A DNA stretch of 39,476 nt, taken from contig JAAYVH010000081.1 in NCBI GenBank assembly GCA_012517255.1, forward strand, positions 1 to 39,476. The letters run 5' to 3'. Below, piece after piece: positions 9,161 to 16,193 of the stretch. A program made the translations under genes and the position numbers. The stretch is from Chthonomonadales bacterium (GTDB taxonomy: Bacteria > Armatimonadota > Chthonomonadetes > Chthonomonadales > CAJBBX01). The notes below the pieces were generated by a model that was not told where the DNA came from, did no database searches, and worked only from the letters and a program-made list of their open reading frames with translations. The stretch's first letter is position 1; each line of letters begins with the position of its first letter.

Positions 9161-9764
9161 CGGCGGTCCCGTCATGGCGTCGTGCAAGCTGGACCTTCAC
9201 GATCTGGTCAGCCTGCGTCACCGCCTCGGTGTCCTGGATCTGACGTATCTGCTCCACCAGAGCGTCCACCTTGTCCGGCGTTACGTTCCCAAAGTAGCGG
9301 CCGCCGACCTGCACCACGGTGCCGGCTTCGCACCAGTTGAGGCATTCCACCTCCGCGAGGCTGAACTCTCCGTCGGGCGTCGTCTGGCCCACCTTGATGC
9401 CGAGCTTCTCCTCCAGCGCACGCAGCGTATCTGCTGCTCCCAGGACGGCGCACGTGAGGCACGTACACACCTCAAGATGCCGACGACCGCGCCGACCGAG
9501 GTTGTACATCGTATAGAACGACGCCACCCCCTCGACCTCAACCGGCGGACAGCCCAGACGCTCGGCAACCTCCTTGATGGCCTCTGCCGGCAGAGATCCG
9601 CCGTACTCTCGCTGAGCGATCCATAGCGCCGGCAGCATGGCGCCCCGACGATCCGGATAGTGGCTCACGATCTCCTCGAGCTCCGCCACTGCCTCCGGCG
9701 AGAAGCGCCCTGAGACGGTGTCCATGGGCCGGTCGCCGCCCCCGGAATGGCCGTTTGCAGCCAT
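9153..9764 (-). CDS. nuoE: NADH-quinone oxidoreductase subunit E ([2Fe-2S] thioredoxin-like)
   Basis: A 203-residue subunit holding the off-path [2Fe-2S] cluster N1a. Ligands are C100 and C105 (CTCLTC), C141 and C145 (CLNWC), matching the C-x4-C and C-x3-C pattern of the 24-kDa family. The helical N-terminal part, with YPDRRGAMLPALWIAQREYG and VEGVASFYTMYN, is also diagnostic. An N-terminal extension of about 14 residues is rich in Gly and may be absent if translation starts at M14. The start shares one base with the nuoD stop (TAATG at 9766-9762), pointing to coupled translation. A C-terminal tail of roughly 25 residues follows the conserved domain. Confidence 0.96.
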   Translation of the reverse strand: MAANGHSGGGDRPMDTVSGRFSPEAVAELEEIVSHYPDRRGAMLPALWIAQREYGGSLPAEAIKEVAERLGCPPVEVEGVASFYTMYNLGRRGRRHLEVCTCLTCAVLGAADTLRALEEKLGIKVGQTTPDGEFSLAEVECLNWCEAGTVVQVGGRYFGNVTPDKVDALVEQIRQIQDTEAVTQADQIVKVQLARRHDGTADG

Positions 9765-11020
9765 TATCGGTCTATCTCCCCCAACACAATGTCAATGCTG
9801 CCGATGATGGCAACGACATCGGCAACCAACCTGCCCTCGCACATGCGGGAGAGCGCCTGCAGGTTCATGAAGGACGGCGCGCGCAGATGCATGCGCCACG
9901 GATAGTTGCTGCCGTCGGAGACAACGTAGAACCCAAGCTCACCCTTCGGCGACTCCACGGGCACGTAAGCCTCTCCTGCCGGCGGCGTGATGCCATGGGT
10001 CCAGAGCTTGAAATGGTGGATCACGGCCTCCATTGAGCGATCCAGCTCTGCGCGGGCAGGCGGCACCACCTTCAGGTCGTCCACGTTGGTGGGGCCGTCG
10101 GGCATGCGCTCGATGGCCTGCTTCGCGATCTCCCTGCTCTGGCGCAGCTCCGCCATGCGAACGCGGTAGCGGTCATTCACGTCGCCGAACTCGCCGGTCG
10201 GCACGCCAAACGAGAACTCTTCGAATCCTGAATACGGGCTCGCCTTCCGCACATCATAGGCCACGCCTGAGGCTCGCAATGTCGGGCCGCTCACTCCGAG
10301 ACCGAAGCACTCCTCGGCGCTGATCACGCCGATGCCTTGCGTTCGTTCACGCCATATGGGGTTCTGATCCAGCAGCGTCTCGTATTCATCCACGCGGCGA
10401 GGGAACTCGTCGAGGATTGCCTTGCATCGCTCGAAGAACCCATCGGGAACGTCGCCTCGCAGACCGCCCGGGATGATCCAGGATGGCATCAACCTGACGC
10501 CAGAAAGCATCTCCGTCAGGTCCAGCAGCTTCTCGCGCTCGCGGAATGCGTAGAAGAAGACCGTCATCGCCCCGATATCCAGGGCATGGGTGCCCAGCCA
10601 TACGAGATGGCTCGCCATGCGCTGGATCTCCGACAGCAGCACCCGCAGATAACGACCGCGAGGCGGCGGCTCGACCCCCAGGAGCCGTTCGACACTCAGC
10701 GAGAATGCGAGGTTGTTGATATGGGCGGAGACGTAGTCCATGCGGTCTGTGATCGTAACCGCTTTCACATACTGCTGGAACTCACCCTCTTTCTCGATGC
10801 CCGTATGGACATAGCCGATGTGCGGTGTGACCCGGACGATGACCTCTCCGTCAAGCTCGAGGACGAGACGCAACACACCGTGCGTCGAAGGATGCTGCGG
10901 CCCCATGTTAATGACGAGCGTGCTCTCATCAACCGGGTCAATCTCGATTCCCTGCGACACCAGCGCCGCATTGCGCTCCGGGCGCGGCTTGCCGAACGGT
11001 AACCGGGACAGGACGCTCAC
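9764..11020 (-). CDS. nuoD: NADH-quinone oxidoreductase subunit D (49-kDa, quinone-site subunit)
   Basis: This subunit, homologous to [NiFe]-hydrogenase large subunits, forms the quinone-reduction site together with NuoB. The hallmark GPQHPSTHGVLRLVLELDG lies at residues 40-58. HIGYVHTGIEKEGE, DRMDYVSAH and the C-terminal ESPKGELGFYVVSDGSNYPWR and FMNLQALSRMC follow. The frame stays open upstream to 11167, but GTG at 11020 overlaps the nuoC stop as GTGA and gives 418 residues, the family length, so I take that start. The partner NuoB, which holds cluster N2 facing this subunit, is not encoded in the operon. Confidence 0.95.
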   Translation of the reverse strand: MSVLSRLPFGKPRPERNAALVSQGIEIDPVDESTLVINMGPQHPSTHGVLRLVLELDGEVIVRVTPHIGYVHTGIEKEGEFQQYVKAVTITDRMDYVSAHINNLAFSLSVERLLGVEPPPRGRYLRVLLSEIQRMASHLVWLGTHALDIGAMTVFFYAFREREKLLDLTEMLSGVRLMPSWIIPGGLRGDVPDGFFERCKAILDEFPRRVDEYETLLDQNPIWRERTQGIGVISAEECFGLGVSGPTLRASGVAYDVRKASPYSGFEEFSFGVPTGEFGDVNDRYRVRMAELRQSREIAKQAIERMPDGPTNVDDLKVVPPARAELDRSMEAVIHHFKLWTHGITPPAGEAYVPVESPKGELGFYVVSDGSNYPWRMHLRAPSFMNLQALSRMCEGRLVADVVAIIGSIDIVLGEIDR

Positions 11021-11673
11021 TCGATTTCGTCCGCCGTACGCCCGAAGAACCCTTCCCCGGGATGCTGAACGACCTTCTCGCCAACCGACGGTCCATAGGT
11101 GCCGTTGGGGAACTGCACGCGCTCGCCGCCGAGCGGATAGTCTTTGCGCTGGGGATGCCCGATCCAATCGTCCGGCATCAGCAGTCTTCGCAGGTCAGGG
11201 TGACCGTCGAACCTGATCCCGAACATGTCGTAGATTTCGCGTTCGGGAAACGCTGCCCCCGGGAAGATTCCCGTGACGGTCGGGACCACGGGATCGTCGG
11301 CCGGAACGGGTACCTTCACGAACAGGCGTCTGCCCGAACCCATCTGCGATCGCGGATCGTGAATGGACAGCAAGTTGTAGACCACTTCGAATCGGTGCGC
11401 CTTGCCCAGAATGGGACTGCCCGTGCCGGGATCGAGGTAGTCCACGCCCAGGCACTCGTAGAAGAATCGGTAGGCCAGCGAAGGTTCGTCGCGCAGATAC
11501 TGGAGCGTCTCCTGGATCGAGGAGCGGTCAACGACGAGCCAAGCATCGTTCCCGTTCTCCAGAATATCCAGCACTGCATGGGGAAGCGCAGCCTGGACCT
11601 TGCGAGCGTCATCGGCAGCCGTAAGGCCCGCGTCGGCGCCGGCATCCGTCGCCATCCGGCTCTCCTCGGTCAT
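11017..11673 (-). CDS. nuoC: NADH-quinone oxidoreductase subunit C (30-kDa subunit)
   Basis: A 218-residue peripheral-arm subunit that packs against NuoD. The signature EREIYDMFGI lies at 144-153 and is followed by FDGHPDLRRLLMPDDW and KDYPLGG (177-183), exactly as in the 30-kDa family. The N-terminal 25 residues are poorly conserved and acidic or Ala-rich. It is a stand-alone NuoC, not the NuoCD fusion of enterobacteria. The ATG overlaps the nuoA stop by four bases (11670-11673). nuoB, which normally lies between nuoA and nuoC, is therefore absent without any remnant. Confidence 0.95.
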   Translation of the reverse strand: MTEESRMATDAGADAGLTAADDARKVQAALPHAVLDILENGNDAWLVVDRSSIQETLQYLRDEPSLAYRFFYECLGVDYLDPGTGSPILGKAHRFEVVYNLLSIHDPRSQMGSGRRLFVKVPVPADDPVVPTVTGIFPGAAFPEREIYDMFGIRFDGHPDLRRLLMPDDWIGHPQRKDYPLGGERVQFPNGTYGPSVGEKVVQHPGEGFFGRTADEIE

Positions 11674-12158
11674 GCGGCCTTCCTTGCGCCGCTCGGCAGA
11701 CTGACCGGCCCCGAGTTCTCGTTGCCGAACCGAATGGGCGGCCTGGCAGCCTTCGCTTTACCGAGCGCCTTGGAGCTCGCATCGTCCTCTGTACCCCACT
11801 CCAGCGAGCCGGTTCCCACGACGTAGAAGTACGCGATCAACAGGATTCCCACGAAGATGCCCATCTCCGTCAACAGGAACATGCGCTCTGCGCGGCTACC
11901 GAGCTCGAACGTTACCGCCCACGGATACAGAAACACCGTCTCCACGTCAAAGATGATGAACAGCATGGCGACGAGATAGAAGCGGATGGGGAATCGGTCG
12001 CGAGCCGACCCTACCGGCGTCATGCCGCACTCGTAGGTAGTCTCCTTGAACCTCGTTGGCTTCTTGGGACCGAGGATGAGCGATCCGACGACCATAGCGC
12101 CTGCGATGATCGCAGCGATCACAACGGCAACCAGCAACGGTATGTATCGTCCCAGCAT
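11670..12158 (-). CDS. nuoA: NADH-quinone oxidoreductase subunit A, with C-terminal extension
   Basis: A 162-residue, three-helix membrane protein (ND3 homologue) at the arm junction. The matrix-loop Cys motif TTYECGMTPVGSARDRFPIRFY and the helix FIIFDVETVFLYPWAV with conserved acidic residues are present. After the third helix (EMGIFVGILLIAYFYVVGTGSLEW) there is a charged, low-complexity tail of roughly 40 residues that the usual 120-residue NuoA lacks. It is the first nuo gene, 41 bases after the ppk1 stop on the same strand. I see no convincing Shine-Dalgarno; the nearest GGAG is about 14 bases upstream. Cotranscription with ppk1 is possible. Confidence 0.94.
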   Translation of the reverse strand: MLGRYIPLLVAVVIAAIIAGAMVVGSLILGPKKPTRFKETTYECGMTPVGSARDRFPIRFYLVAMLFIIFDVETVFLYPWAVTFELGSRAERMFLLTEMGIFVGILLIAYFYVVGTGSLEWGTEDDASSKALGKAKAARPPIRFGNENSGPVSLPSGARKAA

Positions 12159-12199: not shown

Positions 12200-14281
12200 T
12201 TACCCTAGCGAAACGTTCCCGTCATCGCCGGCATTGTCAATGAACCATTCCTGGGCGCTGATACGCTTCTCGACATCCGTGCCGCAACGCTCATAGGTCC
12301 CATCAGGCCGGAGAACGCGCGCTTTTGCAGTATCGGAGAGGTAAGCAGGCAAGTATACGTCGGCCAGCCAACGGAGGTGCCCGGAATCCTCGACGGGGAA
12401 CAGCGTTTCAACGCGCCGATCGAGGTTGCGCGGCATCAGGTCTGCACTGCCAAGCCAGACCTCCTCTGCACCATCGTTCCAGAAGTAGTACACGCGATCG
12501 TGCTCGAGGAACCGGCCAACAATGCTGCGCACCCGGATGCTCTCGCTGAGACCCGGCACGCCCGGCACCAGGCAACAGCTTCCTCGGACGATAAGGTCAA
12601 TGTCGACTCCCGCCTGGCTTGCCGCATAGAGCTGCTCTGCACACTGGAAGTCAGTCAAGGAGTTCATCTTGAAGACCATGCGGGCGCGCCTCCCCGCATG
12701 CGCATGGGCGATCTCACGCTTGACGCGTTCCATGAGTCCCGCTCGAATGCCTTTCGGCGAGACCATCAGCTTGGCATAGCTGCGGGGAGCGCTGTAGCCC
12801 GTCAGAACGTTGAAAAGCGCCGTAACGTCGTCCGCGATCACCGGGTCGCAGGTGAACAGCCCGAGATCGGTGTACAGGAGCGCGGTCTTGGCGTTGTAGT
12901 TGCCAGTGCCAAGATGGACATACCGGCGAATGCCGTCACCCTCCTTGCGGACCACCATCAGCAGTTTGCAGTGGACCTTCAGCGAGACATCGCCGTACAC
13001 CACATGCGCGCCGGAGGCTTCCAACACGCGCGCCCACTCGATATTGTTCTCCTCGTCGAAGCGAGCTTTGAGCTCCACCATCACGGTGACCTGCTTGCCT
13101 TTGTCACTCGCGTCCTTCAGCGCGGCGACGACGGGTGACTGGCTGCCAACCCTGTAGATGGTCTGCTTGATTGCGAGCACGTCGGGATCGTTGGCGGCAG
13201 CCTGCAGGAACTCGACCACGGGCACGAAGCTGTCAAATGGATGATGCATCAACACGTCGCGTTCGCGGATAGCCGCGAAGAGATCGCCCTGCAGACGCCT
13301 CGGCGTCCGAGGCCGTAACGGCCTGTCCTTCAGATCTGGGCGGTCAATGGCCATGAGGTCCATCAGACAGCTAAGACCGAGAACGCCCTCGCTGCGGTAG
13401 ACATCCCGCCGGTCAATCTCGAGGTTCTGGACCAGGATGCCCTCGATCTCCTCGGGCATCGTGGAGCATATCTCGAGCTGAGAAACGCTGCCGAACCGCC
13501 GGCGCATCAGTCCCCGTTCGATCGTCTGCAACAGATCGCCGGCCTCGTCCTCGCGAATCTCGAAATCAGCGTCGCGAACGATCCGAAAAGGATAGCTCGC
13601 CACAACATCCAGACCGCAGAAGAGCTTCGTCAGATTGGCAGCGACAAGCTCTTCAAGCCACACGAAGACGTACGCCGGCCGGTTCCGGCGGCGTCCGCCT
13701 GAGCTCGAGGGCTGATCCGCCGGCACCAATCGCGGCAAGACCTGGGGGATCTTCACGCGGGCGAACCGCTCTTCGCCCTTCGGCGTCCGCACCACGACGG
13801 CAAGGCTGATGCTCAGGTTCGAGATGTGCGGAAACGGATGGGCCGGGTCCACTGCCAGAGGTGTCAGAACCGGGTAGACAACGGTGTCGAAATAGCGCTG
13901 CACCCTCGCCCGACTCCGATCATCCAACTGCTCATAGCCAAGCAGATGGATGTCGTGCTCCGCGAGGAGAGGCTGAAGCTGCCCGCTGTACACCTGCCAT
14001 GCCTGATGCCGCATGGCTACGACACGCTCGCGAATCTCCTCGAGCTGCTCGGCCGGGGTCATGCCGTCGCGCGATGGCTCCGAGAAGCCTGCTTCCACCT
14101 GCTCCTGCAGTCCCGACACGCGGATCATGAAGAACTCGTCCAGATTGCTGTGGACGATGCTCAGGAACTTCGCGCGCTCAAGGGGCGGATGATCGGGTGA
14201 GGCAGCCTCCTCGAGTACACGCAAGTTGAACTCGAGCCAGCTGACCTCCCGGTTGAAGAACCGCGTTGCTGTGTCAGCCAT
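12200..14281 (-). CDS. ppk1: Polyphosphate kinase 1
   Basis: A 693-residue cytoplasmic or membrane-associated enzyme that reversibly polymerises the gamma-phosphate of ATP into inorganic polyphosphate. N-domain motifs FFNREVSWLEFNLRVLEEA and HSNLDEFFMIRVSGL are present. The phosphohistidine is H437 in VHCKL and the second catalytic His is H594 in FLEHDRVYYFWN. Both are shifted by two from E. coli H435 and H592. The nucleotide-loop regions KQTIYRVG, MVELKARFDEENN and HLGTGNYNAKTA are intact. The frame is open to 14362, but ATG 14281 has AGAAGG about six bases upstream and gives the family length. It lies upstream of nuoA in the same direction. Confidence 0.96.
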   Translation of the reverse strand: MADTATRFFNREVSWLEFNLRVLEEAASPDHPPLERAKFLSIVHSNLDEFFMIRVSGLQEQVEAGFSEPSRDGMTPAEQLEEIRERVVAMRHQAWQVYSGQLQPLLAEHDIHLLGYEQLDDRSRARVQRYFDTVVYPVLTPLAVDPAHPFPHISNLSISLAVVVRTPKGEERFARVKIPQVLPRLVPADQPSSSGGRRRNRPAYVFVWLEELVAANLTKLFCGLDVVASYPFRIVRDADFEIREDEAGDLLQTIERGLMRRRFGSVSQLEICSTMPEEIEGILVQNLEIDRRDVYRSEGVLGLSCLMDLMAIDRPDLKDRPLRPRTPRRLQGDLFAAIRERDVLMHHPFDSFVPVVEFLQAAANDPDVLAIKQTIYRVGSQSPVVAALKDASDKGKQVTVMVELKARFDEENNIEWARVLEASGAHVVYGDVSLKVHCKLLMVVRKEGDGIRRYVHLGTGNYNAKTALLYTDLGLFTCDPVIADDVTALFNVLTGYSAPRSYAKLMVSPKGIRAGLMERVKREIAHAHAGRRARMVFKMNSLTDFQCAEQLYAASQAGVDIDLIVRGSCCLVPGVPGLSESIRVRSIVGRFLEHDRVYYFWNDGAEEVWLGSADLMPRNLDRRVETLFPVEDSGHLRWLADVYLPAYLSDTAKARVLRPDGTYERCGTDVEKRISAQEWFIDNAGDDGNVSLG

Positions 14282-14339
14282 GTTCGCCTTCTGATGGCTC
14301 GACCGAGTCGGCGACGTGTCACCGTCGCATGGCAATGTC

Positions 14340-14381
14340 GGCCGCCTGGCATCATGTCCCATGGCGTTTGCCTAGGCGGCC
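14340..14381. repeat. Inverted repeat at the end of the oxidoreductase gene
   Basis: GGCCGCCT at 14340-14347 and AGGCGGCC at 14374-14381 are perfect 8-base inverted arms around a 26-base loop. The right arm covers the last codons and stop of the Gfo/Idh/MocA gene. No U-run follows on the minus strand, so it is at best a weak or Rho-assisted transcript end before ppk1. Confidence 0.3.
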
Positions 14382-15391
14382 ACGCCGACACCGGCGGCGG
14401 CGTAGATGTCACGCAGCGCTTCCACCGAAGCCAGAGCGTCGCGGCCTGTCACGATGGGCTGGCGCCCTTCGCGGATCGCACCCACGAAATCGGCGGCGAT
14501 GTTGGCGTGCCCTTGAAGACTGATAGCCATGGCCTCTGCGCGTCCGCCCAGCTTGGCTTCAGCTTCGCTCACTTCGTCCGTGTGATCTGCCCCGCCATAG
14601 CCAAAGTGGACCACGGCGGCGTCGTCGAACGCCGCGGATCCCTCCGTACCGAATACTTCGATCCGGGTGCACAGAGGCGGATTGCAGCAGGTTGTGGCTT
14701 CGATGACGCCGCGGGCACCGCATTCAAAGCGCACAACCGCCATCAGGAAGTCCTCGGCTTCCATGCGATGCGCCTGCGTCTCGGCGACGGCGTATTCAAC
14801 TCGGGTCACGCGTCCTGCCATCCAAATCAGATGATCGAGCGCGTGCAGGGCCTGATTGGCAAGTACTCCCCCGTCCAGTTCCCATGTTCCGCGCCACCGG
14901 CTGCTATCGTAGTAGGACTGGTCGCGCCACCACTTGATGTAGGCGGAACAGGAAAGCAGGCGTCCCAGCCGGCCTGTCCGACAGGCTTCGGTGACCAGAC
15001 GCGGCCCCCGGTAGGTGCGACGCTGAAGAACGCACGACAGAACGAGGCCTCGCCGCTCGCACGCTTCGACCAGCTCTCGGGCGCGGTCCGCATGCACGTC
15101 GAGCGGCTTCTCGCACAGCACATGCAGTCCTGCATCCGCGGCGACCAGGCCCTGCCGCGCATGCAATCCCGACGGCGTGCAGATGTCCACCGCGTCAATA
15201 ACGCCGGAGCGGACCATCTCGCCGACATCGGAGAAGGCCTCGCAGCCGTATTCGGCGGCGGTCTCTCGCGCACGATCCATGATCGCGTCACAGACCGCGC
15301 CGATGCGCGCCCCCTCGATGTCTTTCCACACAGACAGATGAGCCTGCCCGATGGCGCCGCAACCGACGACGCCGATACGTACCGGGTCCAT
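14372..15391 (-). CDS. Gfo/Idh/MocA family NAD(P)-dependent oxidoreductase
   Basis: A 339-residue cytoplasmic dehydrogenase of the glucose-fructose oxidoreductase/inositol dehydrogenase family. The Rossmann motif GCGAIG lies near residues 10-15 and the CEKPLD motif, with the catalytic-region Lys, at 93-98. A C-terminal alpha/beta domain follows, containing LWELDGGVLANQALHALDHL-like family sequence in which the conserved His of this class can be seen. Substrate is probably a sugar or cyclitol, but the sequence does not say which. The ATG shares one base with the stop of the upstream HNH-repeat gene (TAATG), implying coupled translation. Three glycine-rich turns at the C-terminus end in VGVAA. 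Confidence 0.88.
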   Translation of the reverse strand: MDPVRIGVVGCGAIGQAHLSVWKDIEGARIGAVCDAIMDRARETAAEYGCEAFSDVGEMVRSGVIDAVDICTPSGLHARQGLVAADAGLHVLCEKPLDVHADRARELVEACERRGLVLSCVLQRRTYRGPRLVTEACRTGRLGRLLSCSAYIKWWRDQSYYDSSRWRGTWELDGGVLANQALHALDHLIWMAGRVTRVEYAVAETQAHRMEAEDFLMAVVRFECGARGVIEATTCCNPPLCTRIEVFGTEGSAAFDDAAVVHFGYGGADHTDEVSEAEAKLGGRAEAMAISLQGHANIAADFVGAIREGRQPIVTGRDALASVEALRDIYAAAGVGVAA

Positions 15392-16035
15392 TAGCCGGAG
15401 ACACCCCCAGTCCTTCGTCGAAGGCCGACACGACGTCGGCGAATGGCAACATCCCGAGCATCGAGGCCAGCGGCCTCAAGGGCTGCATTCCAACTCCCAA
15501 ACAGACGGCGCGCCGCGGAGATGAGGGCTGCATCCGCATCCTCGACCGCCGCTGCATTCAGCGCCTCGCCGCGCGACCGCCTCCGTCTGATCCCTGCGAC
15601 CACCAACTCCTCGGTCCATCTCCGGTAGCGTCCGATACGCTCACATTCGACGCCGGCAGCCGCCAGGGCGTTGCGCCACGACCCAAAGCGTCGGCGCCGA
15701 CATGCCGCCGCCGCCAGCCCCGGAGCGCGCATCACGACTCCGGTCCATGACAGATCGCCGCCTTCCTCCGCAATCTGGCGTATCGCAGCCACGACGGACT
15801 CGCGGGTCCAGCGCCTGCGGCGTCTGTACTCCGCCTCGACGCCAGCTTGTTCGAGCGCTTCCGACCATGACCCGACGCACCGTTCGGCGGCCCTGAGCAA
15901 TGCCAGGTTCCACTCGGCGACGCCGCTATACGACAGGTCACGTCCCGTCGCATGGGCCGACTGTATCGCCGCCAAGACTGCCTGCTGTGTCCATTTCCTT
16001 TGTCGGGCCAATGCAGATTGCTTGCCTCGGAACAC
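15391..16035 (-). CDS. Arg-rich protein of three HNH_repeat-like (homing endonuclease-associated) repeats
   Basis: The protein has three tandem repeats of about 62 residues. Each opens with [RK]-[KR]-W-T and closes with GSW-x2-AL-x2-AG; from the upstream GTG the GSW cores lie at residues 64, 127 and 189. This matches my memory of the Pfam homing-endonuclease-associated repeat, a small helical DNA-recognition module. No HNH, LAGLIDADG or GIY-YIG catalytic motif is present. Arg-rich linkers (RRRRRW, CRRRRF) and a basic C-terminus suggest nucleic-acid binding. GTG at 16062 would give 223 residues but puts the start inside the tRNA promoter. GTG at 16035 (214 residues) has AGGGA eight bases upstream, so I prefer it. 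It overlaps the oxidoreductase gene by one base. Confidence 0.75.
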   Translation of the reverse strand: MFRGKQSALARQRKWTQQAVLAAIQSAHATGRDLSYSGVAEWNLALLRAAERCVGSWSEALEQAGVEAEYRRRRRWTRESVVAAIRQIAEEGGDLSWTGVVMRAPGLAAAACRRRRFGSWRNALAAAGVECERIGRYRRWTEELVVAGIRRRRSRGEALNAAAVEDADAALISAARRLFGSWNAALEAAGLDARDVAIRRRRVGLRRRTGGVSG

Positions 16036-16055
16036 GACGCTCGTCCCTGGGGTTA

Positions 16056-16085
16056 TTGACACGCCGCCACGGCGATGCGTATACT
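16056..16085 (+). promoter_or_regulatory. Sigma70-type promoter of tRNA-Asn
   Basis: TTGACA at 16056-16061 and TATACT at 16080-16085 are separated by 18 bases, and the tRNA starts 33 bases after the -10. The -10 overlaps the palindrome GTATAC (16079-16084), so a TATACG hexamer is also presented on the minus strand towards the HNH-repeat gene. Confidence 0.85.

Positions 16086-16118: not shown

Positions 16119-16193
<75 letters not shown>

Follow-up and report, generated by a model that had tools for sequence, protein, structure and literature searches.

A gene in the Chthonomonadales contig analysed here encodes a protein which consists of three tandem HNH_repeat modules (PF18780) and lacks a nuclease. 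We think it rather probable, judging from sequence comparisons, that this is a DNA-binding protein, likely a transcription repressor or activator which would act by occupying its site. Each PF18780 module would be a small helical unit. The three modules would lie along a single DNA site, one sub-site being read per repeat, and the whole array would recognise one fixed sequence; occupancy of this site, without any nuclease, would then repress or activate transcription. The gene appears to have been long retained as a single copy in its order of Armatimonadota. Throughout, the window denotes the whole stretch of 39,476 nucleotides which was analysed.

The protein and its repeats

The gene and its three modules are positioned as follows.

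15391..16062, (-), stand-alone protein of three HNH_repeat modules; 223 aa when read from the first GTG, with the GTG at codon 10 as another possible start
15820..15999, (-), repeat 1, residues about 22-81; from the alignment with relatives and the predicted helices
15628..15816, (-), repeat 2, residues about 83-145; best Pfam stretch 86-139
15442..15624, (-), repeat 3, residues about 147-207; from the profile match, the alignment and the predicted helices

The whole 223-aa protein matches PF18780 with E 1.8e-16 and 60.7 bits at a cut-off of 26 (Pfam). Three stretches are found at E<=1, two of them at E<=0.01. The profile search thus returned a match, and the three HNH_repeat-like modules of the original prediction stand. 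Scored singly in a search of the genome, repeat 2 reaches 28.5 bits and repeat 3 reaches 28.1 bits, both above the cut-off; the weakest of the three, repeat 1, is below it (16.5 bits). The tandem repeats are regularly spaced at about 62 residues. The motif [GESD]SW..AL..AG occurs in three copies in the protein versus 0 of 20000 letter shuffles. Pfam domains other than PF18780 are not found above cut-off in the 223 aa. As had been claimed, the protein is Arg-rich, with 38 R and 2 K versus 22 D+E; counted from repeat 1 onward the pI of the window copy is 11.4. In its own 4.77 Mb assembly the gene is the sole site above the PF18780 cut-off, and one further match is located on contig C104 (E 1.16).

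The real start of the window protein may be later than codon 1. The GTG at codon 10 is preceded by AGGGA, and in many relatives a Shine-Dalgarno sequence is positioned immediately ahead of the RKW of repeat 1. For this reason the long N-termini of some ORFs, including L041/L048 and L057/L069, are probably non-coding.

The repeat protein has no match to NCBIfam families at E<=0.1, and the PADLOC models of anti-phage defence yield 0 families at E<=0.1. PHROGs contributes one family, phrog_22655 (function unknown), at E 1.6e-12.

Search for a nuclease

At E<=1 Pfam shows no match to any HNH family in the 223-aa protein. In the same genome the PF01844 (HNH) profile has three matches at E<=1, 0 of them on the contig of the window; among the several existing HNH models, PF01844 was the one with which the contig was searched. 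A regular expression for HNH/GIY-YIG-like cores was run over all six frames of the window; its 17 hits are loose HNH-like ones, and 0 lie inside the repeat ORF. A nuclease detached by a frameshift was not found: the contig has no PF01844 match and the core matches are loose, none being within the ORF. The claim of a nuclease-free protein is supported by both lines, i.e., Pfam on the protein and PF01844 on the contig.

Position-specific conservation of the repeats

A phmmer search provided 47 ORFs. The 40 above 100 bits were used for the analysis of neighbours, and 36 of these 40 entered the ortholog alignment (A1). L042, L044, L049 and L051 were excluded from it because phmmer splits their match, so that they may have another number of repeats; the match is also split in L041 and L048, but these two were retained. 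All 36 aligned orthologs (36/36) have a PF18780 match. The window copy is divergent, sharing 39-47% identity with the other 35 rows.

When the repeats of the 36 orthologs are compared individually, the nearest neighbour of 107 out of 108 repeats is the repeat at the same position in another protein. Mean same-position identities are 52.5, 64.1, and 55.9% for repeats 1, 2, and 3, i.e., repeat 2 is the most conserved; repeats at different positions share 35-41%, including those inside one protein. The 107 repeats nearest to a same-position repeat indicate that the repeats most likely diverged before the families split and that their order has been kept since. Such position-specific repeats are more in keeping with a fixed, asymmetric target than with a coat that is uniform, and it is from this conservation that we infer sequence specificity.

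The original prediction had proposed either a regulator or a nucleoid protein, and these data bear on the choice. A non-specific nucleoid-associated protein would coat DNA by means of its basic residues. The 38 Arg and the pI of the window copy agree with this, as do the mean net charge of the orthologs (+9.7) and a short, stand-alone protein without widely fixed neighbours. However, over the 36 orthologs the net charge ranges from -3 to +23 and the lowest pI is 6.0, and each repeat keeps a signature of its own, a feature superfluous in a uniform coat. We thus regard the nucleoid half of the proposal as unlikely, although of all alternatives it survives best; the regulator half is supported, indirectly, by the helix-turn-helix (HTH) and methylase partners of PF18780 described below.

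Selection was estimated in 14 ortholog pairs. In the nine unsaturated pairs dN/dS is 0.041-0.166, i.e., selection is purifying. The other five are saturated or nearly so: L073/L075 (dN/dS 0.034, ps 0.749), L076/L077 (pn/ps 0.17), L077/L078 (pn/ps 0.20), and the window copy paired with L060 (pn/ps 0.59) or L063 (dN/dS 0.269 at ps 0.712).

Distribution within the Armatimonadota

PF18780 is present above cut-off in 33 of 61 genomes (relatives, own genome included) and in 0 of 14 control genomes. At E<=1 the figure rises to 56 of 61, which means little as 10 of the 14 controls also match at this level (13 of 14 at E<=10); the usable figure is 33/61.

A profile built from the 36 orthologs, which stem from 35 genomes, was searched in 291 Armatimonadota genomes. 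At E<=1e-5 it matches 26 of the 31 genomes of the order Chthonomonadales, with one match apiece (families f1 9/12, f2 1/2, f3 16/17). In the phylum as a whole 98 of 291 genomes match, of which 35 supplied profile rows and 63 are independent of the profile. No match at this threshold is found in 193 genomes, including five of the order. Matching genomes outside of the order have one to five matches each, some of which are fragments of one array.

The five misses in the order differ in kind. In G001 two flank-bearing contigs end on either side of the expected site, and in G021 the flank contig ends about 2.4 kb before it (positions inferred in both cases). Completeness is 78% for the assembly of G002 and 64% for that of G014. 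The miss in G004, which is 97% complete in 740 contigs, is unexplained.

A contig search with the divergent window protein recovered five haloarchaeal loci, and presence elsewhere is under-sampled by this query. Further, relatives of the repeat protein are present in 12 viral contigs and 2 plasmid records. In the free gene tree, which has long branches, the window copy joins G005 and neither f1 nor f3 forms a clade. Yet enforcing clades is not rejected for f1, f3 or the order (AU p 0.196, 0.118, and 0.0764, respectively). Non-rejection, with a p for the order as low as this, is no proof of vertical descent, which we presume for the order as a whole.

Viral and plasmid relatives, patchy presence in the phylum and a tree without family clades are what one may expect of a relic or free-rider of a homing or phage element, retained via repeated transfer and not because of a function. 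Against it stand the purifying selection in nine pairs, the single match per genome of the order, and ppk1 alongside the gene in five loci of family f1. Further, a search of 50,697 phage records with the ortholog from the same-order genome G015 was negative at E<=1e-5, and the contig has no PF01844 match. Set beside the mobile, sporadic spread of HNH homing endonucleases, the distribution is not sporadic in the order and is patchy in the phylum. As the profile matches most genomes of the order once each, the gene has little resemblance to a homing relic in decay, and we consider such an origin of its persistence quite unlikely. As to the domesticated homing-endonuclease module of the original prediction, the three modules, the lack of a recognised nuclease and the pattern to be expected of a domesticated gene (single copies, purifying selection, fixed repeat order) are borne out. 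Descent from a homing endonuclease is possible; alternatively, PF18780 may be a general DNA-binding module which also serves nucleases.

Partners of the repeat in other proteins

PF18780 is joined to several domains elsewhere. An HNH nuclease accompanies HNH_repeat in L038 (PF01844, Pfam), and a Haloplanus plasmid protein combines HNH_repeat with HNH_2, which scores 21.1 bits and just reaches its cut-off of 21. A Cro/C1-type HTH_3 domain is C-terminal to HNH_repeat arrays in two viral contigs (L088 3577-4512, L089 4004-4963). An HNH_repeat array with a C-terminal Cro/C1 HTH recurs on a Brevibacillus plasmid, in a protein whose annotation is HTH transcriptional regulator (L103 1060-2439). In an N6/N4 DNA methylase family of relatives one PF18780 is located C-terminally (L010 160-1728, L014 67-1689; Pfam), and here it is possibly a methylation-targeting module. 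The clear domain partners of PF18780 act on DNA, and this points to DNA binding by the repeat protein. A role as a regulator is most likely, given the joining of PF18780 to Cro/C1 HTH domains and a DNA methylase elsewhere.

Proteins made of the repeat alone are known from viral contigs (L087, L092, L095; Pfam) and from haloarchaea (L036, L037; by reading) as well. Thus the repeat-only architecture is not unique; what is notable is the order-wide, single-copy ortholog group.

Additional arrangements were observed. L007 7-1707 and L006 1444-2352 show, by reading, the same combination of methylase and PF18780. In the viral contig L098 (2039-2773) a sigma70 region 4-like HTH, below cut-off, is followed by HNH_repeat. 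The haloarchaeal L034 (5965-7617) has six HNH_repeat stretches and a C-terminal part without Pfam match.

Neighbouring genes and upstream regions

In the window the repeat gene is surrounded by the following features.

14372..15391, (-), Gfo/Idh/MocA oxidoreductase (PF01408 E 1.9e-27, PF22725 E 4.9e-25)
12200..14362, (-), polyphosphate kinase 1, ppk1 (TIGR03705 E 1.4e-253)
16119..16193, (+), tRNA-Asn(gtt) (ARAGORN)

On from the repeat gene the order is Gfo/Idh, ppk1, and then nuo genes. At the junction GGCTAATGGAC the last A of the stop TAA of the repeat gene is the first base of the Gfo/Idh ATG, a one-base overlap. The tRNA-Asn(gtt) is divergent from the repeat ORF, 56 bases apart. Both neighbours had been described correctly: the TAATG coupling exists, with Gfo/Idh verified by Pfam, and so does the adjacent tRNA-Asn, verified by ARAGORN.

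At 9764-12158 of the window nuoA, nuoC, and nuoD are aligned in series, the best nuoA match being under its NCBIfam cut-off. Because the ORF of nuoA overlaps that of nuoC, there is no nuoB between the two.

A different picture emerges when other loci are examined. Gfo/Idh follows the repeat gene in three of the nine gene-bearing genomes of family f1 (G000, G005, G006). Clustering of neighbours shows none within 4 kb in the other six gene-bearing f1 genomes or in other families, and Gfo/Idh is excluded as a general partner. A tRNA-Asn adjoins the repeat gene in two of 41 loci, the window and L060; L055-L058 are among the loci which end near the gene on one side, so that part of the flank is outside of the tRNA survey. 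As 39 of 41 loci are without adjacent tRNA-Asn, it is excluded as a conserved partner. No tRNA was found in 34 further loci, of which 29 span about 3 kb at most and five, from haloarchaea, about 12 kb. Neither Gfo/Idh nor tRNA-Asn defines the function of the protein; both are lineage-limited. In part of family f1 ppk1 is a conserved neighbour: it is on the same strand downstream of the repeat gene in five loci (G000, G005, G008, G010, G011), and this supports orthology within the family.

Neighbours kept beyond single families were not prominent in the clustering, except for a few broad groups at variable distance and strand. For the cultured thermophile Chthonomonas calidirosea T49, of a species which the NCBI taxonomy assigns to Chthonomonadales (Armatimonadota), the genes are described as dispersed and non-operonic, and the same is said of Fimbriimonas ginsengisoli. 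Consequently, absent neighbour conservation tells little here.

A narrow form of the preferred explanation, overlapping with it, is a local regulator solely of the coupled Gfo/Idh gene. The one-base overlap and the three genomes in which Gfo/Idh follows the repeat gene would agree with this; its restriction to these three makes so narrow a role very unlikely.

Upstream of the orthologs 27 of 35 regions, picked as non-redundant, were compared, L055 at the end of its contig having been excluded at the outset. No shared operator was found among the 27; a Shine-Dalgarno sequence is the only clear common signal. The real data are represented by the top result out of four runs, against two runs for each of five shuffles, a bias in their favour. 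At width 10 the information content (IC) is 8.55 versus 7.45-8.0 in shuffled sequences, and Shine-Dalgarno accounts for many rows. At width 16 it is 9.85 versus 8.65-9.7, which is not convincing.

Predicted structure

An AlphaFold2 model from a 16-row alignment has a mean pLDDT of 84.1. It consists of three modules of five helices each, with helix three directly continuing helix two (model residue numbers are protein numbers minus one). Structure prediction, recommended in the original prediction, thus yields three repeated helix sets. The relative placement of the modules is unsure because pTM is 0.50. Foldseek against the PDB gives 0 matches at E<=0.001, and by sequence solved relatives are limited to three matches (E 0.32-1.4). 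Among predicted viral structures there are 0 matches at E<=0.001, the best being an uncharacterised Siphoviridae protein (E 1.8e-3, probability 1.00). The best likeness of a module, Z 4.2, is to the N-terminal HTH domain of a TetR protein, with an rmsd of 3.6 over 53 residues; the same Z is reached by a ribosomal small-subunit protein which we take to be uS15. For the predicted module, Z values up to 4.2 are too weak for a fold assignment.

A binder of structured RNA (rRNA, tRNA or mRNA) is the least probable of the alternatives: the weak resemblance to a ribosomal protein and the tRNA-Asn in two loci speak for it, yet so low a Z may reflect a mere common arrangement, 39 of 41 loci have no such tRNA beside the gene, and the clear domain partners act on DNA.

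Comparison with known systems

In the literature searched a single paper mentions PF18780/HNH_repeat, a modelling study which has it in one row of a table (PMC8078820); others may exist. The conserved single-copy, repeat-only group would be a simple test system for what PF18780 binds. If its DNA code were known, it would be easier to understand how nucleases, phage-borne regulators and methylases which carry the repeat are directed to their targets.

PF18780 (homing endonuclease associated repeat) owes its name to an association with nucleases; the window protein matches it above the curated cut-off, yet is found without a nuclease. An HNH homing endonuclease has a catalytic HNH in or beside the protein. 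Here none is seen by Pfam on the protein or by PF01844 on the contig. The NUMODs of phage homing endonucleases are described as modular DNA-binding regions tethered to nucleases, and I-TevI also represses its own gene through DNA binding (PMC3943268). In contrast to the window protein I-TevI retains its nuclease; the likeness is in the modular design, by description.

In plants AP2 is a DNA-binding domain common to homing endonucleases and transcription factors (PMC3794426). It is a different domain, likened to PF18780 by description. Tentatively, one may go further and envisage an ancient Armatimonadota transcription factor made exclusively of homing-endonuclease-type repeats, domesticated before the families split, with one module per operator sub-site, as a bacterial counterpart of AP2. 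We hold this to be possible, though doubtful. If true, the protein might serve as a scaffold which reads DNA module by module, through a code from repeat to base that could be deciphered.

The bacterial parallel is WhiA, a conserved regulator related to homing endonucleases (PMC3781837, PMC11701221). WhiA keeps a homing-endonuclease domain together with an HTH, whereas the window protein has repeats of the DNA-binding type only.
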